Source of the DNA: Lentisphaerota bacterium | Lineage (GTDB): Bacteria > Verrucomicrobiota > Lentisphaeria > Victivallales > UBA1829 | Assembly (NCBI GenBank): GCA_015061845.1 | Contig: SUVT01000015.1 | Span: 1 to 38,028 of the forward strand | Length of the DNA stretch: 38,028 nucleotides | Direction of reading: 5' to 3' | Shown: piece after piece, positions 570 through 28,819 of the stretch | Numbering within the stretch: the first letter of the stretch is position 1 | Layout of the letters: each line of letters begins with the position of its first letter | Position numbers and translations under genes: made by a program | The notes under the pieces: model-generated | Seen by the model: the letters and a program-made list of their open reading frames with translations, nothing else | The model's database searches: none | Told to the model about the DNA's origin: nothing

Positions 570-926
570 TTATTTTTTTACCGGAATGCCGAGTTTCTCT
601 TGGGCATCTTTCAGTCCTCCCAGATTATGGAGATCTGTGTAGCCCATTGTTTTTAACTTTTCGACAGCAGTTCCTGCCCGTCTGCCGCTGCGGCAATAGA
701 TGTATATCGGCGTATTTTTACCGGAAACTTTACTGGAAATTTTGCTTTCCAGCTCGGCAAGCGGAAGAAGGACTGCGCCTTCCAGATAACCGGTTTTGTG
801 TTCCTCCGGAGTCCGGACATCAAGCAATACCGCATTGTTTTCCATAGATATTTTACCTTCTGTTGAACAACATCCGCTTGTCACAAGCAGAAAAATTACG
901 GATAATATTGAAAGAAGAGTTTTCAT
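570..926 (-). CDS. Rhodanese-domain lipoprotein (second of tandem pair)
   Basis: 118 aa. Residues 1-18 form a lipoprotein signal ending T-S-G-C, so Cys19 is the likely lipidated residue. One rhodanese (sulfurtransferase) domain follows: VLLDVRTPEEH is the CH2-type entry motif, and the active-site loop is Y-C-R-S-G-R-R with catalytic Cys78. Single-domain rhodaneses carry persulfide sulfur on that cysteine, and a lipid anchor would place this one in the periplasm or envelope. A GGAG ribosome site precedes ATG 926. The gene follows its paralog by only 18 bases and shares its promoter, and a strong terminator follows. The physiological sulfur donor and acceptor cannot be read from the sequence. 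Confidence 0.85.
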   Translation of the reverse strand: MKTLLSILSVIFLLVTSGCCSTEGKISMENNAVLLDVRTPEEHKTGYLEGAVLLPLAELESKISSKVSGKNTPIYIYCRSGRRAGTAVEKLKTMGYTDLHNLGGLKDAQEKLGIPVKK

Positions 927-944
927 CTGCGCTCCTTTCCCCGC

Positions 945-1304
945 TTACTTTGCAGTGGGTAACCCCAGCAGTTTCCGGGCATCTTTCATTGCGCCGAGAT
1001 TATGAACATCGGTGTACCCCTGCTTCAACAGTTTTTCCGTTGCCATTGTTGCTTCCCGACCGCCCCGGCAATATACATAAACCGGAGTATCTTTGGAGGG
1101 AACAACTGTTGCAGCTTTAGTGTCCACATCCGCCTGCGGCAGATTGATTGCGCCCTGCAGATAGCCTTTCTGATACTCTGTCGGAGTCCGGACATCCAGC
1201 AAAACAGCATTCTTTTCCATCGTGATTTTGCACTGTCCGAGAGAACAGCATCCACTTACAACGAGCAGCATAACGCCGCACAGCATGACAAGAAGTTTTT
1301 TCAT
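945..1304 (-). CDS. Rhodanese-domain lipoprotein (first of tandem pair)
   Basis: 119 aa, with the same layout as its downstream neighbour. The lipoprotein signal ends V-S-G-C (Cys19), and a single rhodanese domain has VLLDVRTPTEY and the loop Y-C-R-G-G-R-E with catalytic Cys79. The two proteins align along their full length (for example GYTDVHNLGAMKDA against GYTDLHNLGGLKDA), so the pair arose by tandem duplication. The active-site loops differ (CRGGRE against CRSGRR), which in this family tunes the anion held over the cysteine and suggests different acceptors. ATG 1304 has a GAGGTG ribosome site and lies about 70 bases downstream of a near-consensus promoter. Confidence 0.85.
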   Translation of the reverse strand: MKKLLVMLCGVMLLVVSGCCSLGQCKITMEKNAVLLDVRTPTEYQKGYLQGAINLPQADVDTKAATVVPSKDTPVYVYCRGGREATMATEKLLKQGYTDVHNLGAMKDARKLLGLPTAK

Positions 1305-2680: not shown

Positions 2681-3280
2681 ATGAAAAAGATACTTTTAGG
2701 ATTACTCTTTTGCGGAATCAGCACATCAATCATGGCGGCATATCAGTATAATGTAAAAGGAAATCAGGGCTGGTTGACTTTTGATGGAGAAACAACGGTT
2801 GCCTTTGATCTTACCCGGGAAAGCCGGAAAGATAAGGATAACGGACAGGATAACTACATTGACCGCGGAAATGGTGCGGCTGATTACGGATGGTACAATT
2901 TGGATACCGGAGAAAAAGGGTCTTTCAGTAATGGAGCTGCTGCTACATTCACGGAAAAAGACCGTATCGGTTTCTGGGTGAAGGACAATACCGGAAAAGT
3001 TTATGTTTCAACCAAACCGGAGAAAAATGCTGATTCCAATGTTATTTGGGGGAAATCCCGTGAGATTGCAGATGGGTTCAGTGTTGCCGGCGGTAATTTC
3101 GGTTCTAATGGAACGCAGGAATATTACGTTCTTAAAATCAATAAAGCGAACTCCAATAAGGGAAATGCTCCTTCCGGTCAGCCGCTGCCCGGTATTCTCG
3201 CGGTTTTGGCAGCCGGTGGCGTCGCTTTCGGTGCAACCAAACTCTATCTCAACAAGAAAAAGGGGAAAGACAAGAAATGA
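2681..3280 (+). CDS. Secreted exosortase substrate candidate 1 (SGQPLPG C-terminal signal)
   Basis: 199 aa. A signal peptide (1-19) ends I-M-A. The secreted body contains GWYNLDTGEKG and DRIGFWVKD. The C-terminus has the three parts of an exosortase sorting signal: SGQPLPGI (165-172), a short hydrophobic segment (about 172-186), and the basic tail NKKKGKDKK. The same SGQPLPGI motif ends the next gene, and an exosortase lies two genes further on. The body matches no domain I know. It has an AAGG-rich ribosome site and is the first gene after the promoter. Expected fate: export, cleavage near the motif, and attachment to an envelope component. It is not a canonical VPEP-type PEP-CTERM protein. 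Confidence 0.8.
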   Translation: MKKILLGLLFCGISTSIMAAYQYNVKGNQGWLTFDGETTVAFDLTRESRKDKDNGQDNYIDRGNGAADYGWYNLDTGEKGSFSNGAAATFTEKDRIGFWVKDNTGKVYVSTKPEKNADSNVIWGKSREIADGFSVAGGNFGSNGTQEYYVLKINKANSNKGNAPSGQPLPGILAVLAAGGVAFGATKLYLNKKKGKDKK

Positions 3281-3960
3281 AATATCTTTCAATCATTGCT
3301 GCAGCGTTCCTGACAATTGTTGTTCCAGCATCAGCGACTCTTCAGTATAAATTGGAGTCCGGTACTGGCGAAGCATGGTTTTCCGTTGACTCGACACAAA
3401 AAGTTTACGTTGATGTGAAGAAAAATGATGGAACATCTGTCAAATTGGGTGATTCCGTCATCAGCAATATCGGCTGGTACTATTATGATGATGTTGCGAA
3501 GTATCGCGGTCAGGGCGGAGGTGGACGTGGACCGGGGCGTGGACCGGGGCGTGGTTCTCAACAATCCGGTACTTTGCCGCAAATTCATTATGGAAATATG
3601 AAGACCGGTGAATTGGGGGAATTTTATCCGGGCGATAAAATTGTTCTCTGGGTTGAGACCACTTCTGCGAACGGTAAGAAAGAAACGTTTACGATGTACA
3701 GTCCGACAACACAGGACAGTGATATCTGGATGCTTGGAAAATCCGGAGAAAGTATTGTTTTCAACTGGGGTGATTTCGGAGTCGATTATGGTAAGAAATC
3801 CCAGAATGCTGCGAATCCTTCCGGATTTGAGTTTTCGATTTCTACAAAAGCTCCGACTTCCGGACAACCGCTGCCCGGTATTATCGCAACCATTGTTGTT
3901 GGCGGCGGAACTCTGCTTTATCTGAAAAAGCGGAAGAAACTTTACGGAATCAAAGAATGA
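3277..3960 (+). CDS. Secreted exosortase substrate candidate 2 (SGQPLPG C-terminal signal)
   Basis: 227 aa, overlapping the previous gene by ATGA. Signal peptide 1-20 (VPASA). A Gly/Arg/Pro-rich spacer (about 81-95) comes from a 12-bp DNA tandem repeat. The C-terminal signal is SGQPLPGI (195-202), a hydrophobic stretch (202-216), then KKRKK. Its body parallels the first protein in order and spacing: L/YQYK start, GWYYYDD, TGELGEFYPGDKIVLWV, a DS-IW step, then a G-DFG step before the tail. The two are therefore paralogs rather than just sharing a tail. Function unknown. The likely role is a surface or matrix protein processed by the adjacent exosortase. Confidence 0.8.
   Translation: MKYLSIIAAAFLTIVVPASATLQYKLESGTGEAWFSVDSTQKVYVDVKKNDGTSVKLGDSVISNIGWYYYDDVAKYRGQGGGGRGPGRGPGRGSQQSGTLPQIHYGNMKTGELGEFYPGDKIVLWVETTSANGKKETFTMYSPTTQDSDIWMLGKSGESIVFNWGDFGVDYGKKSQNAANPSGFEFSISTKAPTSGQPLPGIIATIVVGGGTLLYLKKRKKLYGIKE
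3526..3554 (+). repeat. 12-bp coding tandem repeat (Gly-Arg-Pro spacer)
   Basis: CGTGGACCGGGG occurs twice in tandem (3526-3537, 3538-3549), followed by a partial third copy. It encodes the RGPGRGPGRG spacer of substrate 2. Short in-frame tandem repeats can expand or contract by slippage, so this linker may vary in length between strains. Confidence 0.8.
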
Positions 3961-6149
3961 AATTTTTTCAGAATTTCCGGCTCTTCGGGAAAATAAAGAA
4001 GCTCCGGAAATTACATATAGTTTTGATCTCAATCGCAGTGCTGGTGCTTATTGGAAGTATCGGCACTATGACTTATCTGCTTTATTCAAACTATCAGAAT
4101 GCCACACTTTTCAAGCAGGCTCAGCGTAATTTCCAACGGGGGGATGAGGCTTCCCTTGATGCTGCAAAAGCTCAGCTGTTACAGCTGATCAAGAATGACG
4201 ATGATAATGAAGCTGCTTATGTTATGCTTGGAGCTATTGCCGAGAAGCGGAAAATTTATCCGGAGCAGGTCTATTATTGCTTCATGGCATATAAACTGAA
4301 TCCGTTGAGTACTGAAAACAAGGATAAATATATCAGCAGTCTGTGTTCCGCCCGTGATTTTGAGCGGTTGGAAAACTTTCTCTCACGGCAAAGTGATATC
4401 TCCGACAAGCAGAACCAGATTCTTGTTTATGCAGCCGGACAAAATGGCAGAATTCAGAAATATAAAAATGTCTCCAAAGCTGGCAGCTCTCTGAATAAGT
4501 TGACAGAACTGCTTTTCAGGAAAAAACTGACTACAGCGGAGAAGCTCAAGAAGTTGAGTGTATTCAAGGAAGACGATCCCTTTTTGAAACAGGAAATCCT
4601 TGCGGCTCAAGCGAGATTTTATTTGGAAGTCCGGGATGTTGAAAAGACAGAGAAAGCATTGCAGGCTGCTTATGAACTCAATCCTTATGCCTTTGCTCCG
4701 TCTCTGGGAAGATTTTATATCAATTTCCGTTCTTTCGGACAAGGTCTGGAAGTTTTTGAAAAATATCTGGAAACTTATCATGATCAGGCGGTTGCATTGC
4801 AAACCGCAGAAGTCTATTGTCTGTTGAAACAAACTGGAAAAATAGAAAAACTCCGCAAAGAATATCAGTCAGATTCCGGTAACAGTGCAATGTTGAGCTG
4901 TTATTATTTTGATGCCTTGACCGCTTTGGCAAAAAATGAACAGAGTTCATTAAAAAAATTCACCATGCCATTACGGAAAAATATCAATACTCCTTTGGCG
5001 GCATTTATGTTTTTGTGTGTTGATATTGAGGACGGCGATCTGAATGCAGTAAGACAGAGTTATAATAATTTGCTTTCCCACCGGACTTACCTGGATTTGC
5101 AGGATCGTGCCGATGGTATGATCCTCAATTTGATAAAGCGTTTCTGGAATGAATCCGAAAAGAAAGATCAGATTCTTTCATTGGCAGAAATCGTTTACCG
5201 GCGGAAACCGGATGTGATGGTTGCTAAATTGATTCTGCTTTCTCAGAAACAGAAAGACTCTATTGATATTATTTTGTTGCAGGATGCTCTGAAGCGTTTT
5301 CAGGATGATCCTGGGATGATCAAGATAGGGATCGAGTATTATCTGAACAACGACTTGACAGCCGCCGGAAAACTGATTGCCAAATATCGGGAACTTTACC
5401 CTGCAAAACAATCGGACATGCTGCGTTATGAGATCATTTCTGCGTTGCGGCGTAAGAATTATGAGTTGGCATCAAAGCTGTTCCGGGATAACTTTTCACC
5501 GGAGATCTGTCCTGAATATTGGACCTTTGCCAGTTCTTCCATGCGGGAAAAAGATTTGGAATTCTTGAGCCGGAACAAAACTTATGCGCCGTACTGTCAG
5601 GCTTTGATATTATTGAAGAAGAACAATGCAAAAGCTGCTTGTGATCTTTTGGAACGGGCAGAATATAATGAAAATCAGGCTTTGTTATTCTTTGCGGCAA
5701 AAACGCTGGCAGAAAATGGCAGAAATCAGGCAGCATTGAAGAAATATTCCTTATTTCCGGAAAAAACTCCGTATAAACTTTCTGTTTTGTTGAATACCGC
5801 AGAAATTCATGCGGAAAGCGGAAATCTTTCTTACGCCCTTCAATTGGCTGCGGCTGCATACAAAATGTCACCGGACCGACCGGAACCTCAGCTGTGTTAT
5901 GCTGATAAACTTTATAAAAACGGAAAAGTGTCAGTGATTCCTGATATCATAAAACTTTCTTCTGATACGCCCTATCGGAAAGAGATGAGAAAACTTTGGA
6001 TCGCCGGAATGCAGCAACGGATCAAAGATTGCGACCTCCAGCGGCAGCGGGAGCGGGCAAGGGAACTTTGCCGTCAACTTCTTGTGGTCGATCCGGAAAA
6101 TCAGACATCGCTTGAATGTATAAAAAAACTGAATAAGATGCCGCAGTAA
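3957..6149 (+). CDS. Membrane-anchored TPR-repeat protein of the exosortase/EPS locus
   Basis: 730 aa, starting on the ATGA overlap with substrate 2. A basic N-terminus precedes one transmembrane helix (about 20-43); the remainder is a soluble alpha-helical array of TPR-like units. Examples are AAYVMLGAIAEKRKIYPEQV, the EKALQAAYELNPYAFAP unit, and near the end LSYALQLAAAAYKMSPDRPEP. Large TPR proteins are regular members of exosortase-associated EPS loci, where they are thought to scaffold glycan assembly or substrate handling. The exact partner is unknown. Topology is inferred as N-in with the TPR solenoid outside the cytoplasmic membrane, from the positive residues before the helix. Confidence 0.75.
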   Translation: MKFFQNFRLFGKIKKLRKLHIVLISIAVLVLIGSIGTMTYLLYSNYQNATLFKQAQRNFQRGDEASLDAAKAQLLQLIKNDDDNEAAYVMLGAIAEKRKIYPEQVYYCFMAYKLNPLSTENKDKYISSLCSARDFERLENFLSRQSDISDKQNQILVYAAGQNGRIQKYKNVSKAGSSLNKLTELLFRKKLTTAEKLKKLSVFKEDDPFLKQEILAAQARFYLEVRDVEKTEKALQAAYELNPYAFAPSLGRFYINFRSFGQGLEVFEKYLETYHDQAVALQTAEVYCLLKQTGKIEKLRKEYQSDSGNSAMLSCYYFDALTALAKNEQSSLKKFTMPLRKNINTPLAAFMFLCVDIEDGDLNAVRQSYNNLLSHRTYLDLQDRADGMILNLIKRFWNESEKKDQILSLAEIVYRRKPDVMVAKLILLSQKQKDSIDIILLQDALKRFQDDPGMIKIGIEYYLNNDLTAAGKLIAKYRELYPAKQSDMLRYEIISALRRKNYELASKLFRDNFSPEICPEYWTFASSSMREKDLEFLSRNKTYAPYCQALILLKKNNAKAACDLLERAEYNENQALLFFAAKTLAENGRNQAALKKYSLFPEKTPYKLSVLLNTAEIHAESGNLSYALQLAAAAYKMSPDRPEPQLCYADKLYKNGKVSVIPDIIKLSSDTPYRKEMRKLWIAGMQQRIKDCDLQRQRERARELCRQLLVVDPENQTSLECIKKLNKMPQ

Positions 6150-6151
6150 AT

Positions 6152-7012
6152 ATGAAAATATTTTTCAACAGAATCTCCAAACATCCCCTGGGAGCATTAT
6201 ACGGAATGCTGCTGGGGATTGTTGCTTTTTCGGCAGCGGTTCCGATGTTTGTTTCCGGAGCCTGGGATGCCGCATTGGTTGATTTGGCAATGACAGGCGT
6301 TCTGATTGCTCTGATGTTGAAAGTTCTGGTCGTTACTTTCCGGAAACCTTCGACAAAAGTTGAAAAATGTGCGGCATGGATTTTATTGATCATTGCTGAT
6401 ATTCTTGCATTGCTTCCCACCCATGATTTCCCCGGCAGTTTAAGTACGGCGTTTGCCTGTTCTCTGCTGATTTGTGCTTTCGTCCTTTATTTCAGCGGAA
6501 CTCATATTGCTGCGTCGTGTATTCTTCCGGCTCTGTGGTGTTGTGTGTTCATGCCATATCATGAAGAGATCATGCTGCTTATGAGTTCGCCTTTGCGGTT
6601 GAGTGCAACTGTGTTGAGTGCCGGTATCCTCAACCTGGTGGGAATCAGCGTTGTTCAATCCGGGACGTCCATGGCATTGCCGGGGCTGAATATTGCGATC
6701 ACAGATGCCTGCAGCGGGATCAACCAGTTGGATGCCTTTCTTCTGATTGCTTTTGTGGCTGTCCAGATGATGCATAAAAAGCTTCTCTGGAAAAGCCTGC
6801 ATTTTGCATTTGTCATTCCTTCCATTATCATCGGCAACAGTTTACGGATCGTTCTGACGGTGCTGTTTTACCGTCTTTGGGGGGAAGTTGTGTTGCAGAA
6901 CACCTGGCATATTGCGTTGGGATATGTCCAGATCGTTTTTGCCTTGTTGATTTTCCTTGCTATCGGAAGACTATTCCGTTTTGATGAAAAAACTGCGGAG
7001 GAAGTAAAATGA
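6152..7012 (+). CDS. Exosortase (transpeptidase-like membrane protease)
   Basis: 286 aa with about eight transmembrane helices. The three catalytic motifs of the exosortase/archaeosortase family are present in order: D-A-C-S-G-I (Cys187), N-S-L-R-I-V (Arg232), and W-H-I-A-L-G-Y (His253). Exosortases recognise a C-terminal motif-helix-basic tail on secreted proteins, cut near the motif, and are believed to pass the product to an acceptor. The likely substrates are the two SGQPLPG proteins at the head of the operon. The subfamily cannot be assigned by eye, and the recognition motif is not the standard VPEP. The ribosome site is weak, so translation probably depends on coupling to the TPR gene 2 bases upstream. 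Confidence 0.88.
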   Translation: MKIFFNRISKHPLGALYGMLLGIVAFSAAVPMFVSGAWDAALVDLAMTGVLIALMLKVLVVTFRKPSTKVEKCAAWILLIIADILALLPTHDFPGSLSTAFACSLLICAFVLYFSGTHIAASCILPALWCCVFMPYHEEIMLLMSSPLRLSATVLSAGILNLVGISVVQSGTSMALPGLNIAITDACSGINQLDAFLLIAFVAVQMMHKKLLWKSLHFAFVIPSIIIGNSLRIVLTVLFYRLWGEVVLQNTWHIALGYVQIVFALLIFLAIGRLFRFDEKTAEEVK

Positions 7013-8061
7013 AAAAGAAGATTTTCCTGATTGCTTCTGCCATACCGTTGTGTTTTCATGTGCCGTATCTTTTATCTGCCTGGCGCGGATCCCGTCTTGA
7101 TCAGTGGGATTGGATCTTTTATCTGCTGACGATCCCGGCGATTTTTCTGTCATGCAGAAATGAAAAAGCGGAAAAATGTGATTTTACCGCATTATTCCTT
7201 TTGCTCCCGATGTTATTTTTGAGCGTAACAACTCCGTTCCATGAGATCAATGCAGTTGGCGTAGCAGCATCGGTTCTGTGCATTTACTCTACAGTCTGGT
7301 TGGTTTATTCATGGAATTATGCCTGTCAGATATTGCCGGCTGCTGTGATTTTACTGCTTGGAACACCCAGCTCAAGTTATGGCGTTTCATTGTTGCTGAT
7401 GTGTCCGGTCTGGCTGGCATGGACTGTAAAATTCCTGCTTTCATTATTATGTTTTATCTGGATATGGAGCAACAAAAAATTCGGGTTCCGGATGAAAAAA
7501 GGGACCGTGATCTTTTCAACGGCTGTTCTTGCCAGTTGTTTCCTGCTTCTGCATACGAAAGAGATTTATTTTGAAGGGAAGAGTTTTATTCCTGATTTTT
7601 CCGGTCATGTCGGTGATTTCTGGGGCAGGAGTATTCAGCCGGATGAAAATACAAAACGTTTTTTTGTGACCAGTAAGGTGAATCAGTACCGTTATACAAA
7701 AAACGACATTGACATTTCTGTGTTGGAAGTGCTTTGCGGAGATGACATTCATGAGATACACCCTGCAAGTCATTGTTTACGGACAAGTCGCTGGAATGTG
7801 AATTCTGAAAAAATCTGTTATTTGCAGGATAATTTTGCTGTGACTGAGATCGATGCGCAGAAAGGGGCAGCCCGTTATCTTGTCTGGGTGTGGTACAGCA
7901 GCGAAGATTTTTCGACACCCGGCTTTCTTGGGTTCCGCAGACATTTCCGTGTCGGTAAAAATTACTATACTTATCAGATTTCCATCCCTGTGTATGACGA
8001 TGTGGAACAGAGTAGAAAGAATCTGAAAACCTTTATTCAGTCTTTGAAGGAGAACCCGTAA
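7009..8061 (+). CDS. EpsI-like exosortase-associated membrane protein (DUF3485-type C-domain)
   Basis: 350 aa, overlapping the exosortase gene by ATGA. Residues 1-185 hold about six transmembrane helices. The extracytoplasmic C-domain (about 195-350) contains I-H-P-A-S-H-C-L-R-T-S-R-W (250-262), matching the H-x-P-E-x-C-L-x-x-x-G-W signature of EpsI. EpsI is often fused to, or encoded beside, exosortases in EPS loci. Here it is a separate protein with its own large membrane half, and the usual Gly before Trp is Arg. EpsI is thought to assist exosortase or EPS export; its biochemical role is unsettled. Assignment of the C-domain is by motif; the N-terminal half is unassigned. Confidence 0.7.
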   Translation: MKKKIFLIASAIPLCFHVPYLLSAWRGSRLDQWDWIFYLLTIPAIFLSCRNEKAEKCDFTALFLLLPMLFLSVTTPFHEINAVGVAASVLCIYSTVWLVYSWNYACQILPAAVILLLGTPSSSYGVSLLLMCPVWLAWTVKFLLSLLCFIWIWSNKKFGFRMKKGTVIFSTAVLASCFLLLHTKEIYFEGKSFIPDFSGHVGDFWGRSIQPDENTKRFFVTSKVNQYRYTKNDIDISVLEVLCGDDIHEIHPASHCLRTSRWNVNSEKICYLQDNFAVTEIDAQKGAARYLVWVWYSSEDFSTPGFLGFRRHFRVGKNYYTYQISIPVYDDVEQSRKNLKTFIQSLKENP

Positions 8062-8774
8062 TGACAAAATACGAACAAATTACAGCTTTACGGCAGGAAT
8101 TGAAGCGTCCGTCAGTTTTCCGTCATAATCATATTCAGATCCGGATGCTGATCTGGAACATTACGATCGGAGCCTCCAAATCATTCAAACGGTTTATGGA
8201 TATTTTATTATCGATTCTTGCAATTCTGATCGGTTCACCGGTCTTTCTTATCACAGCTGCTCTGGTCAAATTGAGCAGTCCCGGACCGATCATTTTCAGT
8301 CAGGTTCGAGTTGGAAAATATGGCAGACACTTCAAATTTTACAAGTTCCGCAGCATGTATATCGATGCAGAAGCACGGAAAGCAGAGTTGATGAAACATA
8401 ATGAGTCCGGAGATGGCGTAATTTTCAAAATGAAATGCGATCCCCGGATCACTCCGGTTGGACGTTTCATCCGGAAATTCAGTATTGATGAATTGCCGCA
8501 GCTGTTCAATGTTCTGCTGGGAGATATGAGTCTGGTAGGTCCGCGTCCGCCTCTTCCTTCAGAGGTAAGGGCATACAGTCTGGACGAACGGAAGCGTTTG
8601 AATGTTACGCCCGGAATTACCTGCATATGGCAGGTTTCCGGTCGGAGTGAACTGCCGTTTTCCAAACAGATCGCATTGGATAAACAGTATATCTCCAGTC
8701 AAAGTGCCTGGAAGGATTTCCTGATATTGCTGAAAACTGTTCCGGCTATTCTGACAGGGAAGGGAGCCTGGTAA
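8061..8774 (+). CDS. Undecaprenyl-phosphate sugar-1-phosphate transferase (PGT, bacterial sugar transferase family)
   Basis: 237 aa, starting one base inside the previous stop (TAATG). A short soluble N-terminus is followed by one membrane segment (45-69) and the catalytic domain of the monotopic PGT family: QVRVGKYGRHFKFYKFRSMY (the KFRSM motif, 95-99), D-E-L-P-Q-L (143-148), and G-D-M-S-L-V-G-P-R-P (154-163). These enzymes transfer sugar-1-phosphate from a UDP-sugar to undecaprenyl phosphate, the first step of lipid-linked glycan synthesis. It has the small single-domain form rather than the five-helix WcaJ/WbaP form. The sugar is not predictable. It is the likely initiating enzyme for this EPS. 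Confidence 0.9.
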   Translation: MTKYEQITALRQELKRPSVFRHNHIQIRMLIWNITIGASKSFKRFMDILLSILAILIGSPVFLITAALVKLSSPGPIIFSQVRVGKYGRHFKFYKFRSMYIDAEARKAELMKHNESGDGVIFKMKCDPRITPVGRFIRKFSIDELPQLFNVLLGDMSLVGPRPPLPSEVRAYSLDERKRLNVTPGITCIWQVSGRSELPFSKQIALDKQYISSQSAWKDFLILLKTVPAILTGKGAW

Positions 8775-11027: not shown

Positions 11028-13109
11028 ATGGACACGCTGGATAAAGAGTTAAATGTTCAGGAAGAGACGCGGCAGATAAAGAAACTGAAAATGTACCAGA
11101 AACTGGTTTTCTTTACTTTGTACAAATTCAAATGGAGCATCATAACAGTTTTTTTGCTGACGATTGTTGCAGGGGCTGTCTTCCGCTATTTTCAGTTTAA
11201 GAAATCTGACAGGAAGTTTGAAGGATCTATTACACTTTTCTACACTCCCCGCGCCAGTGAGGAAGTGAAACCTTTGAGTATGAATCATGTTCTGGGTGTA
11301 TTTTCCCGGCAGCAGATTTTTCTTCAGCTGATTGATGAGATGCATCTGACCGACAAGCAGAAAGCGACTTTGAAACAGAGTATAGATGTAAAACTGCAAA
11401 AAGATCATAATGACATGTTTGTGGTAACGGGAGTCGGTGAAAGCGATGAGTATGTCAAACAGCTGGTTTATACCTTTGTCATGCTCGGGATCCGGAATTA
11501 TGAAGAATACCGTACCGCTGAATTGCGTAATTTCCTGGACACTCGCGAACGCCGGTTGTTTGAATTGCAGGAGTACCAGCAGAAGCAGATCAAGAGTGAA
11601 CATGCTCTGCATCAGAAATATGGGATCGTACATCCCTTCGATGAAATGAATACTGTCAAAAAAATCCAGGGGGAACAATCTGCAAAACTTGCTGAATTGA
11701 ACGTGAAACTGACCGATGCACGCCATCGTTTTGCTGTTGCAGAAAAGAATTACAAGGCGATTCCGCCCAATGTTATCAAACATCGCGGAGCATTGCAGGA
11801 ATATATTCTTGAAATCCGCAAAACTTCCAGAGCATACGAAAAAGCAAAGTTGATGTTTGCAGAACGGAATCCCCGTTATGTGGAAGCCAAGAGTGCATAT
11901 GAGACGGTCAAAAAAGAATTTGAAGATTTCAAAAAACGTTATCAGATCACGAACTTTGAAGAAAGCATGCTTCTCGGAATTGAGGGGATAATCAGCCGGT
12001 ATCAGGAAATAGAAGTGATCCGGAATGAGCTGGAAGTCAGCATGAAATCTCTGGAAGCAGAAATGAATCTTGTGAAAGAAAAAGAGAAAAAACTTCAGCA
12101 TATGATTCCGGAGTATGAACGGATCGTTGAACTCAAGAAAACGGCAAGCAAAAACATTTCTCTTCTTGTTGAAGAACTTTCCCGGGTACGAAGCAATATT
12201 GCTCATGTACCAAACGATATTATTATCAATGAACGTGTCGTGAACACAAAATCATTCTCCATGTTCCCGATTAAAATATTGGCACTGATTTTTATCGCCG
12301 GCGTTTTCGTCAGCGGACTTTATGCAACGATCGTTGTGTTCTGGGATATTGTTTATGGTAAATTCAGCGGAATAGAAGAAGCCGGATTCCATAAAGATTA
12401 TTTCGATACCGTTGGAGTGATTCCTCATGATAAAGCAGCGTTTTCTCTGGAACAGCGGAAAATTATCAATAATGAAATGTTCTATCGCTTTATTCTGCGG
12501 TTGAAAAACACCCGAACTCTCTTTTCCTGTTCGCTTGACGGTTCATTCCTCAGTTCTGTGATATTTGACGAGCAGTTCACCAAAGCAAAACGGAATACGA
12601 TTCTTGTGCGGTTGATTTTGGAAAGCGATGTGGAAAAAATCTGCGGAAAAATGCAGAAAATCGGAGAGTTCTATTACTCCGACAATGGAAATATCGGGGT
12701 GAACTTCACGGATAAAGTGGTGCAGCATAATATTGATTATCTGCATGGTTTTTCTTCCGGTGACGGTCGGGGGTATGGTTACGGCTATGGTTTTGCTTAC
12801 TTCCCGGTCCGCAGTCTTTCGGTACTGGAACCGGACGAAATCAGTTCGCTGTACAATGTTGTAAATGAATTGAAAAAGCACTATCAGCTGATCCGTATTT
12901 CCAGAGAAAAGCCCTTTGATGCTTCCTGTATTCTGGTGAGACAGCTGCATGATATTTGTGATGCAACGCTGCTTTATATCGGAAAACGGCAGACCCCCCG
13001 CAGTGTTCTGCGCCGCGTACTGAAACTGCATGATGAAGAACATAAAGTTTATGCTGTTTTAACAGGCATTACGGACGTTGAAAAAATTATTTCAGGAGAT
13101 TATATCTGA
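11028..13109 (+). CDS. Wzz/GumC-type polysaccharide copolymerase with degenerate kinase-like C-domain
   Basis: 693 aa. TM1 (about 36-53) opens a Wzz-type chain-length domain, followed by a long periplasmic coiled coil (about 170-390, for example LQEYQQKQIKSEHALHQKYG) and TM2 (about 417-438). The cytoplasmic C-domain (445-693) occupies the place of a BY-kinase (Wzc) domain but has no Walker A: where G-E-G-K-S/T is expected there is L-F-S-C-S-L-D-G-S-F-L-S-S (498-510). No D-x-D Walker A' is seen. A Tyr/Gly run G-Y-G-Y-G-Y-G-F (about 582-590) remains. It should span the envelope with the Wza-like protein encoded next and set chain length, with control by something other than autophosphorylation. 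Confidence 0.8.
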   Translation: MDTLDKELNVQEETRQIKKLKMYQKLVFFTLYKFKWSIITVFLLTIVAGAVFRYFQFKKSDRKFEGSITLFYTPRASEEVKPLSMNHVLGVFSRQQIFLQLIDEMHLTDKQKATLKQSIDVKLQKDHNDMFVVTGVGESDEYVKQLVYTFVMLGIRNYEEYRTAELRNFLDTRERRLFELQEYQQKQIKSEHALHQKYGIVHPFDEMNTVKKIQGEQSAKLAELNVKLTDARHRFAVAEKNYKAIPPNVIKHRGALQEYILEIRKTSRAYEKAKLMFAERNPRYVEAKSAYETVKKEFEDFKKRYQITNFEESMLLGIEGIISRYQEIEVIRNELEVSMKSLEAEMNLVKEKEKKLQHMIPEYERIVELKKTASKNISLLVEELSRVRSNIAHVPNDIIINERVVNTKSFSMFPIKILALIFIAGVFVSGLYATIVVFWDIVYGKFSGIEEAGFHKDYFDTVGVIPHDKAAFSLEQRKIINNEMFYRFILRLKNTRTLFSCSLDGSFLSSVIFDEQFTKAKRNTILVRLILESDVEKICGKMQKIGEFYYSDNGNIGVNFTDKVVQHNIDYLHGFSSGDGRGYGYGYGFAYFPVRSLSVLEPDEISSLYNVVNELKKHYQLIRISREKPFDASCILVRQLHDICDATLLYIGKRQTPRSVLRRVLKLHDEEHKVYAVLTGITDVEKIISGDYI

Positions 13110-14158
13110 TGAAAAAACATTTCTATTTAACAATCTTTTGTTTTGCAGTATTCTGTCTGACAGGATGTTATAACCGTTACACCGGAAACTTTGATCAGTA
13201 TCCGGATATCAACAATCTGCCTAGCGGTGTTGTGGATCAGGCAGGTTTGACAGATGAAGATAAACGCCGTCAGCTGGAGTTCCTTAAACAGCTGGATGCA
13301 CAGAAAGAGCCTGTTTACAGAATCAACGCAGGGGATAAAATCAGCATCCGGGTGTACAATCATCCTGATTTGATCATGGAATCTCTTGTGACACCGGACG
13401 GTGCGATCGGTGTGATGTTTGCCGGACAGGTTCAGGTGGCGGGGCTGACTCTGGTGGAAGCCAGTGAAAAGATCAAAAAAATCTATGCCCAGTATATCAA
13501 AAATCCTGAACTTGGCGTTTTTGCCATTGATGTCAGAAGTCAGACTGCAACCATTGCGGGAGCTGTGAACAATCCCGGAATGTTCGTGATCACCAATGGA
13601 ATGCGTCTTGCCGACCTCTTCGCCAAAGCCGGCGGTTCTGCGGTCCGCGACTTCGATGACCAGATGCTTGATGCTGCTGATTACCAGAACAGTATTATCG
13701 TCCGGGATGGAAAGATCCTTCCGGTCAACTTCTCTCTTGCGATTGAACGCGGCGACCGCTGGCACAATGTCAAACTGAAAAAAGGCGATTATATCTATAT
13801 CGCTGTCCGTTCTGAAGCAATGGTCAGTATCATCGGAAGCATTCACCGTCCGCATAAACGGCTTTGGGATCACAATCTCGGGATCCTTGAACTTATTTCT
13901 TCCGGATTGGGGTTGAAAGAAGAACACTGGCAGTATGGTGTCATCATTCGCGGCGGTATGGAAAACCCGCGTTTTTACCGGGTTGATATTGACGGCATTC
14001 TGCAGGGCCGCTGTGCCAATGTGCGTCTGCAGCCGGGAGATGTCGTTTATGTTCCGCATGACGATATTTCTGAGTACAACGTCTTTGTCCGGAAGCTGCT
14101 GCCGACTGCTCAATTCCTGAGTACGTTCACGTTCCCTGCGTTGAATTTTATAAAATAG
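13109..14158 (+). CDS. Wza-type polysaccharide export lipoprotein
   Basis: 349 aa, starting one base inside the previous stop. Lipoprotein signal ends C-L-T-G-C (Cys20). A Poly_export domain begins at YRINAGDKISIRVYNHPDL (about 70-88) and continues through the PDG-x-I-G step. Two SLBB-type segments follow: A-T-I-A-G-A-V-N-N-P-G (about 151-161) and S-I-I-G-S-I-H-R-P (about 244-252). The family forms the outer-membrane channel for capsule/EPS export. Pairing with a Wzz-type partner directly upstream is the standard arrangement. The predicted outer membrane agrees with a diderm host. Confidence 0.92.
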   Translation: MKKHFYLTIFCFAVFCLTGCYNRYTGNFDQYPDINNLPSGVVDQAGLTDEDKRRQLEFLKQLDAQKEPVYRINAGDKISIRVYNHPDLIMESLVTPDGAIGVMFAGQVQVAGLTLVEASEKIKKIYAQYIKNPELGVFAIDVRSQTATIAGAVNNPGMFVITNGMRLADLFAKAGGSAVRDFDDQMLDAADYQNSIIVRDGKILPVNFSLAIERGDRWHNVKLKKGDYIYIAVRSEAMVSIIGSIHRPHKRLWDHNLGILELISSGLGLKEEHWQYGVIIRGGMENPRFYRVDIDGILQGRCANVRLQPGDVVYVPHDDISEYNVFVRKLLPTAQFLSTFTFPALNFIK

Positions 14159-14166
14159 GATAACGG

Positions 14167-15495
14167 ATGAAGTACCTGATATTTTTCATCGCTTTCATGG
14201 GCATCCTGCCGCTTGCGTATATCCTTACGTTGAACCGTAAGTATATGCGTTATGCGTTTTTTGCCGTATGCCTTCCGGTGATGATGTTCAATCAGGTATC
14301 GATCAACTTTTTTTCCCATGAAACATACCGTGGAACTTCCCGGGGAATGGAAGTTTCTCTCGTCTATCTCATTGCCTTTGCCATGCTTCTTGGAATGTGG
14401 TTTCTTTTCAAGAAAAAGCCGCTTTTCCCGGATGCAGGCAGCAAGATTTATCTTGTCTATTTCCTTTTATGTATTCCATCTCTCATCAATGCTGACAATG
14501 CGGCATACAGCTGGTTTGAGTTATGGAAGATGATCATGATGTACATTGTTTTCATTACGACCTATTACTATTTATACTATTACCGGGACTTCAATACTGT
14601 TATTATCGGGTTCGGGATCGTTGCGGCAGTAACGTTTTGCAGCGTGGTGTTTCAGCACATCCGCGGGATCCATCAGGCGAACGGACTTTTCCCTCACCAG
14701 AACAGTATGGGGATGTACATGAACCTTATTGCTCCGGTCTTTTTTGCTTATTATTTCAACCGTAACAAAGGGTGGAAACGTTTTCTGTTTGCGGCATTTT
14801 TCCTGGTGGCATCAGCTGCATGTATGCGAACCTATTCCCGTGGTGCGATGGCATGTCTTCCGCTCGGGTGTGCGATCACTGCAGTGCTTTCCCTCATTTA
14901 TCAATTCCACATGAGAAAAATCCAGATTCTCCTGCCGATTCTTCTGATCTGCTTTTTCGGAGCATTATTGCTTTTGCCCAACATTATAAACCGGTTTGAA
15001 AATGCGCCCAAAGAGTCTCTGATGACCCGGCAATATCTGGCGGCTTCTGCATGGAACATGATGCAGGATGAACCTCTGGTCGGAGTCGGTTTGAATAACT
15101 GGGGGATCAAAATCAATCCGCCGTATCCTTACTGTGAATACCGTTATGAGAACAAACGGATTGCTCCGGATTTCAAAGAAGGGATCGTCGAGACCAGTTA
15201 TCTGCTTGTCGGGGCAGAGTGCGGTTTTCCTGCTTTGGCAGCTTTCCTGGTATGGCTGGGGTATTATTATGTCTGTGCCTGTAAACTGGTCAAACGGTTA
15301 CGGAGGACAGATTTGTTTTATATCCCGGTTGGGATCGTTGGCGGTTTGACAGCAATTTATTTGCAATCCACGCTGGAATGGGTGATGAAGCAGCAGGTGA
15401 ATTTTATTCAGATGATGATACTGTTTGCAGCGTTGAGTATTCTTTTCAAATACAGTGAGCAGTTTGCTTCCGGGAAAGCGGAGGTGAAGGCATGA
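14167..15495 (+). CDS. O-antigen ligase/polymerase family membrane protein (Wzy/WaaL type)
   Basis: 442 aa with about 12 transmembrane helices. The Wzy_C region has the typical blocks G-L-F-P-H-Q-N-S-M-G-M-Y, T-Y-S-R-G-A-M, and D-E-P-L-V-G-V-G-L-N-N-W-G at the start of the large periplasmic loop. Proteins of this family either polymerise lipid-linked repeat units (Wzy) or ligate glycan to an acceptor (WaaL). In a locus with flippase, Wzz and Wza, polymerase is the more likely role. An exosortase-locus ligase acting on the processed proteins is the alternative. AGGATAACGG precedes the ATG. The last codons overlap the GH9 gene (ATGA). Confidence 0.85.
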   Translation: MKYLIFFIAFMGILPLAYILTLNRKYMRYAFFAVCLPVMMFNQVSINFFSHETYRGTSRGMEVSLVYLIAFAMLLGMWFLFKKKPLFPDAGSKIYLVYFLLCIPSLINADNAAYSWFELWKMIMMYIVFITTYYYLYYYRDFNTVIIGFGIVAAVTFCSVVFQHIRGIHQANGLFPHQNSMGMYMNLIAPVFFAYYFNRNKGWKRFLFAAFFLVASAACMRTYSRGAMACLPLGCAITAVLSLIYQFHMRKIQILLPILLICFFGALLLLPNIINRFENAPKESLMTRQYLAASAWNMMQDEPLVGVGLNNWGIKINPPYPYCEYRYENKRIAPDFKEGIVETSYLLVGAECGFPALAAFLVWLGYYYVCACKLVKRLRRTDLFYIPVGIVGGLTAIYLQSTLEWVMKQQVNFIQMMILFAALSILFKYSEQFASGKAEVKA

Positions 15496-17756
15496 GAGAA
15501 TTGTTCTGCAGAATATCTGTATTGCTTCTTCTGATTCTGACCGGATGCAGCCAGAAGAGTTGTGCCGCAGAAGTGGAACATGAATTTCTGACACCTCAAG
15601 TGGTCGTTCTGAAATGCAGCAAGCCGGTTGAAATCAAAAAATCATCCGTTCCGATTCTCCGGAAAGGAGAATGGAAAAAAGAAAATGGGCTTATCCGGGA
15701 TAAAAATGGAACGATCCAAAAAGAAGCTGATATCACCTGTTATTATTATCTGATTCTGGAACGAGCCTTGAAAGATCAGGAAAAACTGGTGTTGGAAAGT
15801 TCCTGCGGGAAATTGGAACTGCTGTATTCTGCTGCGGTGCCAAGTAATATTTTCAAAGTCAATCAAGTCGGAAACGGGGCAAATCAGAAAAAGAAATATA
15901 CCTACATGGGCGCATGGCTCGGAAGTGCCGGTGCCTTGCCTTTGAAACAGCTTTCCGGGAAAACGTTTGAAATCCGTAATGCTTCTTCGGGTAAGTGCGT
16001 CTACAAGAACAATTTGCATCTGCGCCGGAACGATCCGCATTATCAGGGGAAGATCCCCTTTACCGGAGAAGAGGTTCTGGAGCTTGACTACTCTTCTTTC
16101 AATGTTCCCGGTAAATATTATTTTTATGTAGACGGAATCGGACGGAGTATGGAATTCTCTGTTGGTGCAGAAGCCTTGAATGAAGCTTTCTATATTCATG
16201 CCAGAGGTTTGTATCATAAACGCTGCGGCATTGCCAAACAAAGGGTGCATACCGCCTGGGAAAGTCCAGCTTGCCACCAGTCTGTTCTTCGCGGACGATT
16301 CCCCGGAAATTCTGATCATTACAGGAAAGGAAAAGGTGAAAAAGATTTCGGTTTCTTTGACCGTCGGGGAAACCGGATCGATGTCAAGCATTTTGAATTG
16401 ATTATTTCCAATCCACCTTACAGTCATAAGTACATTACAGCACCGGGCGGGTGGCACGATGCTGCCGATTATGACCGCCGTCCATACCATTTGCGGATCG
16501 TCAGTGATCTGGCAATGGTTTATTTGATGAAGAGTGAAAACTTCATTGACGGTCAGCTCAATATTCCGGAAAGCGGGAACGGTATTCCGGATATTCTGGA
16601 TGAAGCTGCATGGGGTGTGAAGCATCTTCTGGCAGTTCAGCAGAGTGACGGCGGCGTTGGAACGTGGTTTGAAACTGTTGGACATCCGGGCCCCGGAGAA
16701 GGGTTGCCGGATCAGGAGGTCCGCAACTACTATGTTTCCGCACCGTCCCGGAACAGCACACTGGAATATGCCGCTGCGGTAAGCACACTTGCGCTTGCAA
16801 TGCGGAAAGCCGGAGCTGTGAAAGAGTGTGAAAAATATCTTCTTTCCGCACAGAAAGCGTGGGATTTTGCCTTGAATCCAAAGAATCGTCATGTGGCATG
16901 GTTCCGGTTGAAAAATCAGTTGATCTCCTATAAGGAAGAACCGTATCTGCAAGGGGAAAACTTATTGAAAGCCGGACACAATCTTTATTTGCTTACCGGA
17001 GACAGAGCATATCTTTCAGAAATTATGAATGAGAAGAGCCGTGTCAAAGAGTCTTTCAATAAAGATTTCTGGCGCTGGTCAGTTCTCTCGTGGATGTCTC
17101 TTGAATTGTTCCCGGTGAAAGATTTGGAACCGTTCCGTCAGGAGTACCGGAAAGTTATATTGCGTGATGCAGAAAAAATGCTCCAGGATCAGGAAAATGC
17201 TTATCCTTACCGGACATTATGGCACGCAGGGAACGCCGGTTGGGTCCACTCAATGGCATGGGGGAATTATCATCCATTACGCCGAGCGGTCACTTTGATT
17301 GCGGCACATAAACTTACCGGCGCGGAAAAATATCTGACAGGCGCATATCTTGCCAACGATTTCCATAATGGAGCCAATCCGCTGGGCAGAAGTATGACAA
17401 GCGGATTGGGTAAAATCTATCCGTCTGTTTTTCTTGATCTTGTCAGTTATGCCGACAGGGCAGGGGAATTTGTGCCGGGTATAACTCCTTACGGAAACAC
17501 ATTCGGGATTGACCGCAATGCTGTAAAAATGGTGTATGGAGAAAATGCGGACCGGCTGCCGATTTTCCGCAGATACGTCAATCTGGAATTTTTGAGTGTT
17601 CCGTCAAGCGAGTACAGCGTTTGGGAGACCATAGCCCCGGCAGCTGTGACAACGGGATATCTGATAGAGAAAACGGCGATGCCGTCAGCAGAACTGAAGA
17701 ATCGCAAGCCTGCCGGAGATTTCCGCAAGCTGCCCGGTTACCGGGCTTTGCCATGA
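15492..17756 (+). CDS. GH9-family glycoside hydrolase lipoprotein with N-terminal Ig-like domain
   Basis: 754 aa. Lipoprotein signal L-T-G-C (Cys19). A cellulase Ig-like N-domain (about 115-235; VNQVG, then the VPGKYYFYVDGIG step) precedes the (alpha/alpha)6 GH9 domain. The catalytic base motif is P-G-G-W-H-D-A-A-D-Y-D (Asp323, Asp326), and the C-terminal acid is Y-S-V-W-E-T (Glu712). GH9 enzymes are inverting beta-glucanases, mostly acting on beta-1,4-glucans, with some exo-glucosaminidases. Being lipidated and coded inside the assembly operon, it probably trims or releases the cell's own EPS rather than digesting food. This hints at beta-linked glucose-type residues in the product. Confidence 0.85.
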   Translation: MRELFCRISVLLLLILTGCSQKSCAAEVEHEFLTPQVVVLKCSKPVEIKKSSVPILRKGEWKKENGLIRDKNGTIQKEADITCYYYLILERALKDQEKLVLESSCGKLELLYSAAVPSNIFKVNQVGNGANQKKKYTYMGAWLGSAGALPLKQLSGKTFEIRNASSGKCVYKNNLHLRRNDPHYQGKIPFTGEEVLELDYSSFNVPGKYYFYVDGIGRSMEFSVGAEALNEAFYIHARGLYHKRCGIAKQRVHTAWESPACHQSVLRGRFPGNSDHYRKGKGEKDFGFFDRRGNRIDVKHFELIISNPPYSHKYITAPGGWHDAADYDRRPYHLRIVSDLAMVYLMKSENFIDGQLNIPESGNGIPDILDEAAWGVKHLLAVQQSDGGVGTWFETVGHPGPGEGLPDQEVRNYYVSAPSRNSTLEYAAAVSTLALAMRKAGAVKECEKYLLSAQKAWDFALNPKNRHVAWFRLKNQLISYKEEPYLQGENLLKAGHNLYLLTGDRAYLSEIMNEKSRVKESFNKDFWRWSVLSWMSLELFPVKDLEPFRQEYRKVILRDAEKMLQDQENAYPYRTLWHAGNAGWVHSMAWGNYHPLRRAVTLIAAHKLTGAEKYLTGAYLANDFHNGANPLGRSMTSGLGKIYPSVFLDLVSYADRAGEFVPGITPYGNTFGIDRNAVKMVYGENADRLPIFRRYVNLEFLSVPSSEYSVWETIAPAAVTTGYLIEKTAMPSAELKNRKPAGDFRKLPGYRALP

Positions 17757-27775: not shown

Positions 27776-28819
27776 ATGACAGTGAAATGTGAGAAGTGTG
27801 GTGCAGATGTTGAGCTGCAGGATGGTGTCAAGACCGCCAAGTGCGAAAAGTGCGGTGCAGAAGTAGTTGTTAAGGAAGAAGCTGCCGCAGAAGAAAAGAA
27901 AGAAGAAGCTGCTGCTGAAACTGCAGGAGAAGCCGCCGCAGAAGAAAAGAAAGAAGAAGCTGCTGCTGAAACTGCAGGAGAAGCCGCTGCAGAAGAAAAG
28001 AAAGAAGAAGCTGCTGCTGAAACTGCAGGAGAAGCCGCCGCAGAAGAAAAGAAAGAAGAAGCTGCTCCGGAAAAGAAGCCGCTCACTACAAAAGAAAAAG
28101 TAATCAAGATTACAACTCTGGTTGTTGAGATTGCCATTATCCTTGTTGCTTTGGCAATGGTTCCCCGTCTTTGTACCAGACTCCATCAGCATAGAATGGA
28201 TTCCAAGGGAATGCCTCTTGCTCAAGAAGACAATAAAAAACTGCTGCAATATAAAAATGTCGATCAGGAAGAAGTTGTTCTTCCCGGTTGTTTCACCAGC
28301 ATTGGAGAAGGGGCTTTCCAGGACAATAACACCGTGAAAAGCGTAACCTTCCGAAAAACGATCAAAGGAATTGAAAAGGAAGCTTTCAAGAGCTGTGTAG
28401 CTTTGGAAGAAGTTAAAATCTCCGGAGACAGAGGCGCATACGCACTGCTTGATATTGCAACTTTCAGTGCTTTTACCAAAGACAACACTCCTCAGCACAT
28501 TGGAGATTCCGCTTTTGAATTCTGTTTGAAACTGAAAAAAGTTGAATTGCCCGCAGGTATTACCAGTATTGGAACGGATGCTTTTGCAAATTGTATTTCA
28601 CTTACAGAAATTGAACTTCCTGATACACTTGAACGTATTGGTGTTCGTGCATTCGGTCAATCCGGACTGAAAAAAGTGACCATTCCTGACAGTGTTAAAG
28701 TGGTTGGTGATTTCGCATTTTCCGGCAGCAAGTTGGAAGAAATTTCTATCCCCAAGAAATTCTCCGGTAAAACCCAAAAATGGAGTCTTCCTGAAAAGTG
28801 TAAGATCATCGAACGCTGA
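27776..28819 (+). CDS. Zinc-ribbon / low-complexity / BspA-type LRR membrane protein
   Basis: 347 aa with a mosaic layout. (1) A zinc ribbon from two C-x-x-C pairs (Cys5/8 and Cys23/26). (2) About four copies of a 17-residue Glu/Ala/Lys unit, EAAAEEKKEEAAAETAG (35-98), predicted to be a long charged helix. (3) One transmembrane helix (about 112-130). (4) Leucine-rich repeats of the BspA/LRR_5 type, for example HIGDSAFEFCLKLKKVELP, then TSIGTDAFANCISLTEIELP. With no signal peptide, the zinc ribbon should be cytoplasmic and the LRR region outside. BspA-type repeats commonly bind partner proteins or surfaces. Function unknown. It has its own promoter and a strong terminator. Confidence 0.8.
   Translation: MTVKCEKCGADVELQDGVKTAKCEKCGAEVVVKEEAAAEEKKEEAAAETAGEAAAEEKKEEAAAETAGEAAAEEKKEEAAAETAGEAAAEEKKEEAAPEKKPLTTKEKVIKITTLVVEIAIILVALAMVPRLCTRLHQHRMDSKGMPLAQEDNKKLLQYKNVDQEEVVLPGCFTSIGEGAFQDNNTVKSVTFRKTIKGIEKEAFKSCVALEEVKISGDRGAYALLDIATFSAFTKDNTPQHIGDSAFEFCLKLKKVELPAGITSIGTDAFANCISLTEIELPDTLERIGVRAFGQSGLKKVTIPDSVKVVGDFAFSGSKLEEISIPKKFSGKTQKWSLPEKCKIIER
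27878..28078 (+). repeat. 51-bp coding tandem repeat, about 3.9 copies
   Basis: Units start at 27878, 27929, 27980 and 28031. Each encodes EAAAEEKKEEAAAETAG with only one or two synonymous changes, and the last copy degrades to EEAAPEKK. Such near-identical copies are recent and likely vary in number. Confidence 0.9.

Follow-up and report, generated by a model that had tools for sequence, protein, structure and literature searches.

How exosortases recognize their targets, and what becomes of the proteins they process, is poorly understood, and the locus described here poses the problem in compact form: which tail does its exosortase read, and does that tail belong to a sorting system already named? 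The window, by which we mean the whole 38,028-nucleotide stretch analyzed (contig SUVT01000015.1 of assembly GCA_015061845.1, from a Lentisphaerota bacterium), carries two tandem genes for secreted proteins that end in the same GQPLPG-containing tail, followed on the same strand by genes for a membrane-anchored protein, an exosortase and an EpsI-like protein. We conclude that this locus is very probably a dedicated exosortase system, processing included, of an unlisted recognition class, consisting of a GQPLPG-CTERM tail and a divergent enzyme that we term the Q-type exosortase. The pair is distributed in gut and environmental Lentisphaeria and in some other Verrucomicrobiota. The genes at issue are as follows.

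2681..3280, + strand: substrate 1, with a signal peptide, a beta-rich secreted domain and a GQPLPG C-terminal sorting tail (about 3164-3277); from open reading frame (ORF) reading, tail profile and AlphaFold2
3277..3960, + strand: substrate 2, a homologous secreted domain with a GGRGPGRGPGRG insert and a GQPLPG C-terminal sorting tail (about 3847-3957); from ORF reading and tail profile
3957..6149, + strand: membrane-anchored tetratricopeptide repeat (TPR) protein; TPR_14 match
6152..7012, + strand: divergent exosortase (Q-type) with C187/R232/H253 and class residues T184, R149 and W76; from profiles, tree and membrane model
7009..8061, + strand: EpsI-like partner, a membrane N-terminus plus DUF3485; PF11984, 27.1 bits (cut-off 26.1)

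Two tandem substrates share a C-terminal tail

The original prediction, made from the DNA letters alone, had claimed two secreted proteins ending in SGQPLPGI, each with a hydrophobic segment and a basic tail, and the frames at 2681-3280 and 3277-3960 agree with it. The two genes overlap, and their products, of 199 and 227 amino acids, both have a signal-peptide-like start and the C-terminal octapeptide, after which come hydrophobic residues and an end rich in Lys and Arg. In an AlphaFold2 model of substrate 1 (mean pLDDT 70), a helix at residues 3-14 precedes beta strands between residues 21 and 153, and a second helix, residues 171-194, begins at the last glycine of the motif.

The host is a Lentisphaeria draft genome, 82.7% complete and in 169 contigs, with a single exosortase; a profile search of the draft found no PEP-CTERM proteins. 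A DNA pattern search returned two further GQPLPG-like matches in this genome, both of which proved to be short spurious frames and were rejected. Because sorting enzymes with few targets tend to adjoin their target genes (PMC3237569), the host system looks like a small dedicated one with two linked substrates. The suggestion that the shared tail marks a wider sorting system is not borne out in the host draft, where two adjacent genes carry it, and holds among its relatives, where up to seven tails occur per genome, often unlinked.

The tail recurs across Lentisphaeria with a fixed G-P-P-G frame

A tail profile run on 198 genomes of the class Lentisphaeria found the tail in 60 of them, spanning 25 genera, a recurrence that puts it far beyond chance. 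Among 86 distinct tails, the G, P, P and G of G-x-P-x-P-G are fixed, while Q is present in 79 and L in 85; these tails were gathered with a motif profile, so that their constancy is partly built in, yet variants were accepted and seen. The Q position can be taken by K, M, T, R or E. Of the Q-P-L-P-G core first proposed, P-L-P-G therefore stands and the obligatory Q does not, and we refine the core to G-(Q)-P-L-P-G.

Genomes carry from one to seven tail-bearing proteins. In the window's lineage the substrates lie approximately 2.2 and 2.9 kb from the enzyme, the first of these distances (upstream) recurring in some 25 loci; in other lineages they are unlinked. Among 14 related loci compared, from metagenome-assembled genomes of sheep colon, roe deer caecum and other sources, most of those that reach far enough upstream encode SGQPLPG proteins just upstream of the exosortase, and one (L019) does so though its exosortase is only 34% identical. 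Motif variants also track enzyme sub-clades, with GQPAPS in genus g30 and GGPLPG or GGPLPS in g78.

Several further tail arrangements were seen. Loci of genus g9 (for example L249, L206, L251 and L203) encode paralogous relaxed tails, GAPLPA, GAPLPG, GSPLPG and GHPLPG, that lead into LIAGLFGLGFWYVRRRK-like helices; the Q-type exosortase frame of these genomes is about 315-343 amino acids long, and the tails may form a second subclass. At L165:295-6561, five tandem genes encode secreted proteins of about 305-380 amino acids with nearly identical GQPLPGTLATLLI tails, and no exosortase is linked to this array on the stretch examined. Finally, small proteins of about 140-165 amino acids (L162:10847-11275, L160:13526-13984, L157:5254-5670, L203:3628-4119, L205:3410-3907 and L206:3404-3874) carry a signal peptide, HGQPLPG or VGQPTPG, a membrane helix and basic residues, and then continue into a C-terminal extension of 40-50 residues. 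One family terminates in WQKTVLRL/WQRVELRL, another in PGPDLFCQRE. Cleavage of these proteins by an exosortase would leave a cytoplasmic tail, and they are possibly signaling or regulatory substrates.

The exosortase belongs to a separate clade

The frame at 6152-7012 matches PF09721 (Exosortase_EpsH; E 2e-25, 90 bits against a cut-off of 25.7) and the TIGR04178 signature (47.3 bits, above a cut-off of 23), and the catalytic-type residues C187, R232 and H253 lie at the positions originally claimed for them. All three are invariant in 79 of 79 Q-type relatives and nearly so in 30 other exosortases compared. With profiles over cut-off and a conserved Cys/Arg/His set in a protein modeled with eight membrane helices, the enzyme falls within the exosortase/archaeosortase superfamily. 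The EpsI-like gene said to follow it is likewise present, as the DUF3485/EpsI-like frame at 7009-8061.

Membership in the superfamily does not extend to a named family. The window enzyme fails the TIGR02602 (8TM_EpsH) test, scoring 55.4 bits against a cut-off of 105.55; further Q-type members tested reach at most 75.2 bits, and the range for PEP-CTERM exosortases within the class is 123-140. It also falls far below every cut-off for XrtA, XrtB, XrtC, XrtD, XrtV, XrtW, XrtN, XrtO, XrtT, XrtQ and XrtZ, the best of these scores being 61.5 bits against 208 for XrtA. The trees included annotated XrtA, XrtD and XrtV, obtained by searching a plasmid collection with a PEP-type exosortase, together with PEP-CTERM enzymes from the class and canonical ones from other classes. 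Exosortases from tail-bearing genomes form one clade, with branch support of 99-100% (100/100 in the careful tree), which excludes XrtA, XrtD and XrtV as well as the phylum's PEP-CTERM exosortases. Placing the enzyme in a family tree, as had been proposed, thus sets it outside the standard PEP-CTERM enzymes. The window exosortase found no match in the plasmid collection, and profile searches of Protein Data Bank (PDB) sequences found no relative.

Particular positions separate this clade from other exosortases. T184 occurs in 79 of 79 Q-type enzymes and is mostly A, E or D elsewhere; R149, present in 73 of 79, is usually Q in other exosortases; and W76 is a further class residue. Judged from these alignments, T184, R149 and W76 are candidates for specificity.

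Enzyme and tail are distributed together

Within the class, an exosortase is present in 56 of the 60 genomes with the tail versus 39 of the 138 without it (Fisher 1.4e-18, in a wide test uncorrected for relatedness among genomes). Over 388 genomes of the phylum, a profile of the Q-type enzyme is bimodal, with members at 151 bits or more and other full matches at 104 or less. The tail occurs in 44 of 49 genomes with a Q-type enzyme and in 2 of the 194 whose exosortase matches are all of other types; of those two, one has a Q-type enzyme cut by a contig end and the other is a spurious match. Among the Q-type genomes lacking the tail, three (G120-G122) have a GQPAPS variant adjoining the enzyme, and in a fourth (G095) the enzyme sits on a 3.4-kb contig. 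A phylum match in G274 was rejected, the motif being absent.

In one genus (g43) tail and enzyme come and go as a unit: nine genomes have both, one the tail only, none the full enzyme only and approximately 24 neither (p 2e-7, with the size of the genus read from genome numbering). Outside the class, four genomes encode SGQPLPG or TGQPLPG proteins (G200, G229, G312 and G424, the last with SGQPLPA), and all four have an exosortase inside the Q-type clade as well as a canonical one. In three of them a single contig carries both tail and enzyme genes, about 3 kb apart at most; in G229 the tail genes sit on contigs other than that of the enzyme. The within-genus pattern and these occurrences outside the class provide partly independent evidence for the pairing.

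Several points weigh against a dedicated pairing of this tail and this enzyme. The tail is found on two adjacent genes only in the host draft, four class genomes with the tail, fragmented or incomplete, have no detected exosortase, and one Q-type genome (G097) shows no recognizable tail on the 11 kb stretch examined. Foldseek searches of the PDB with a substrate and the enzyme gave no significant match. Beyond the uncorrected relatedness in the wide Fisher tests, many of the genomes surveyed are fragmented metagenome assemblies.

The system is distinct from PEP-CTERM and other named sorting systems

The exosortase (EpsH)/PEP-CTERM system, with its exopolysaccharide (EPS) gene neighborhood (PMC1569441), is the basis for reading our locus by homology. 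It is also the source of the strongest alternative, in which no separate class exists and both partners are divergent versions of known ones, the tail of a PEP-CTERM or VPLPA-CTERM signal and the enzyme of a standard exosortase. As in PEP-CTERM/exosortase A (EpsH; TIGR02595, PF07589; TIGR03109, TIGR02602), secreted proteins here end in a tripartite C-terminal signal and accompany a superfamily enzyme with the same catalytic Cys/Arg/His, an EpsI-like partner and an exopolysaccharide neighborhood (PMC1569441). Among 53 diverse substrates, the best CTERM-type matches were to GPS-CTERM (one, E 0.0024) and, weakly, to PEP_CTERM (five, best E about 0.0074), with PID_CTERM and VPLPA weaker still (VPLPA in two substrates, best E 0.098).

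Against this alternative, the window substrates stay under the curated cut-off of every CTERM model in NCBIfam (June 2026) and Pfam, and PEP-CTERM (PF07589, TIGR02595) and VPLPA-CTERM (TIGR03370) give no match to the window proteins at all. The motif is G-Q-P-L-P-G rather than V-P-E-P, the substrates found are few (1-7 per genome) where PEP-CTERM has dozens, and the enzymes split at 100/100 support, with profile scores jumping from 104 to 151 bits, the tail being essentially absent where only other exosortases occur. PEP-CTERM matches were found in 24 class genomes, nearly all of other families, a distribution complementary to that of the GQPLPG tail. Outside the class the two meet: PEP-CTERM matches number 31 in G229, 55 in G312 and 7 in G424 (one in G200), G229 and G312 being complete or near-complete and the G312 assembly consisting of two contigs. 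Because G229, G312 and G424 hold both enzymes and both tails, two systems with separate tags coexist in one cell. We therefore consider a divergent PEP-CTERM origin improbable.

Other named systems share single features with the locus. VPLPA-CTERM/XrtD (TIGR03370, TIGR04152) has a P-L-P core before the helix, and its enzyme too is accompanied by genes for TPR and polysaccharide-export proteins, as also seen in an annotated plasmid copy; XrtD lies outside the Q-type clade, and the window enzyme scores 54.8 bits against the XrtD cut-off of 400. PID-CTERM (NF046080), likewise a small hydrophobic/basic C-terminal signal, is the best NCBIfam match of substrate 1, but its 14.9 bits fall short of the cut-off of 26, the alignment covers the profile only from position 5 on, and 1 of 53 substrates shows it. 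GlyGly-CTERM/rhombosortase offers a parallel in organization, with one sorting enzyme and either linked dedicated or unlinked multiple targets (PMC3237569), but rhombosortase is a rhomboid serine protease and reads another motif.

The original statement that this class cannot be matched to a named one is thus borne out on both sides, by the tail and by the enzyme. The motif is spread over 60 of 198 genomes with no named CTERM model covering it, rather than confined to two genes within a named CTERM model, and the host combines an absence of PEP-CTERM proteins with an enzyme outside the standard PEP-CTERM group. In the open library searched, no paper speaks of GQPLPG as a sorting tail, of PID-CTERM or of a Lentisphaerae sorting tail, and an earlier mention elsewhere is possible.

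A second alternative holds that the motif is an ordinary membrane anchor or the target of another enzyme (an LPXTG sortase or rhombosortase), its link to the exosortase reflecting shared envelope and EPS gene content. The tail does weakly resemble LPXTG_anchor (12.2 bits against a cut-off of 15.9), and rhomboids occur in most of the genomes, but none of 10 tail-bearing genomes has a sortase (PF04203) or a rhombosortase over cut-off, the rhomboid matches, all below that cut-off, being present in all 14 control genomes as well. An invariant G-P-P-G is unnecessary for an anchor, and the co-loss with the exosortase in genus g43 also argues against this explanation, which we regard as very unlikely.

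Unrelated core domains share the tail

The core domains of the substrates form one large cluster (73 of 106) and others of 7, 3, 3, 2 and 2 members plus singletons, and a few substrates carry DUF4114; the tail is the sole part common to these non-homologous types and thus behaves as a portable suffix. That domain and tail instead spread with the locus as one EPS-matrix protein family, the motif kept by descent and not by recognition, has in its favor the size of the main cluster, in which homology is detectable, and the many substrates in linked loci, but is scarcely credible given tails on unrelated domains, some of them DUF4114, and on unlinked genes in multi-copy genomes, and cores that diverge to approximately 20-30% identity while G-P-P-G stays fixed. 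A tripartite tail, co-distribution of tail and enzyme, and unrelated core domains are together what characterizes exosortase/CTERM-type systems in general, and all three are seen here.

A model for processing

How the tail sits in the membrane can be predicted from its tripartite build and from homology to exosortases (PMC1569441). After export through Sec, a substrate would be arrested in the inner membrane by its C-terminal helix, the GQPLPG motif facing the periplasm and the basic end remaining in the cytoplasm. Recognition of G-x-P-L-P-G by the Q-type exosortase would then lead to a cut in the motif or close to it, made by C187 together with R232 and H253. The cut protein would be released or passed to an acceptor, most likely an exopolysaccharide or envelope component made by the same cluster. 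The EpsI-like and TPR proteins presumably have roles in this pathway.

The locus heads an exopolysaccharide cluster

The substrate, exosortase and EpsI-like genes form the head of a long exopolysaccharide cluster, which also holds a flippase-like protein and glycosyltransferases in addition to the following genes.

8061..8774, + strand: polyprenyl-phosphate sugar transferase (initiating glycosyltransferase), EPS context; PF02397, E 1e-65
11028..13109, + strand: Wzz-like chain-length/co-polymerase candidate with two membrane segments and a coiled coil, EPS context; from sequence inspection, no Pfam match
13109..14158, + strand: polysaccharide export outer-membrane protein (Poly_export/SLBB), EPS context; profile match
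14167..15495, + strand: Wzy_C O-antigen ligase/polymerase family protein, EPS context; profile match
15492..17756: glycoside hydrolase family 9 enzyme with a CelD_N domain, within the exopolysaccharide cluster

Parts of this order recur with the enzyme. Across 79 Q-type loci, the EpsI-like gene lies on the same strand in 78 and is adjacent to the enzyme in 62, the TPR protein is a same-strand neighbor in 63, and the Wzz-like candidate is one in 23. Elsewhere in the window, two tandem small rhodanese-like secreted proteins of 118 and 119 amino acids with lipoprotein-like signal peptides, identified by inspection, lie at 570..1304 on the - strand, and 27776..28819 encodes a BspA-type leucine-rich-repeat protein that begins like a zinc ribbon and contains tandem EEKKEEAAAETAGEAA repeats.

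Implications

We tentatively propose, as a possibility still on the doubtful side, that the Q-type exosortase, the substrates linked to it and the TPR and EpsI-like proteins may be a small transferable module orthogonal in specificity to PEP-CTERM, in which class residues such as R149 and T184, the latter close to the catalytic cysteine, would set recognition of G-x-P-L-P-G and a dedicated matrix protein would be attached to a specific exopolysaccharide of its own cluster. The enzyme positions T184, R149 and W76 differ consistently between recognition classes, and cells in which one or two linked substrates occur together with PEP-CTERM (G312, G229) constitute a small natural test bed. For the organisms themselves, GQPLPG-CTERM defines a class of surface proteins in Lentisphaeria of the animal gut that is represented by no model in the libraries searched.

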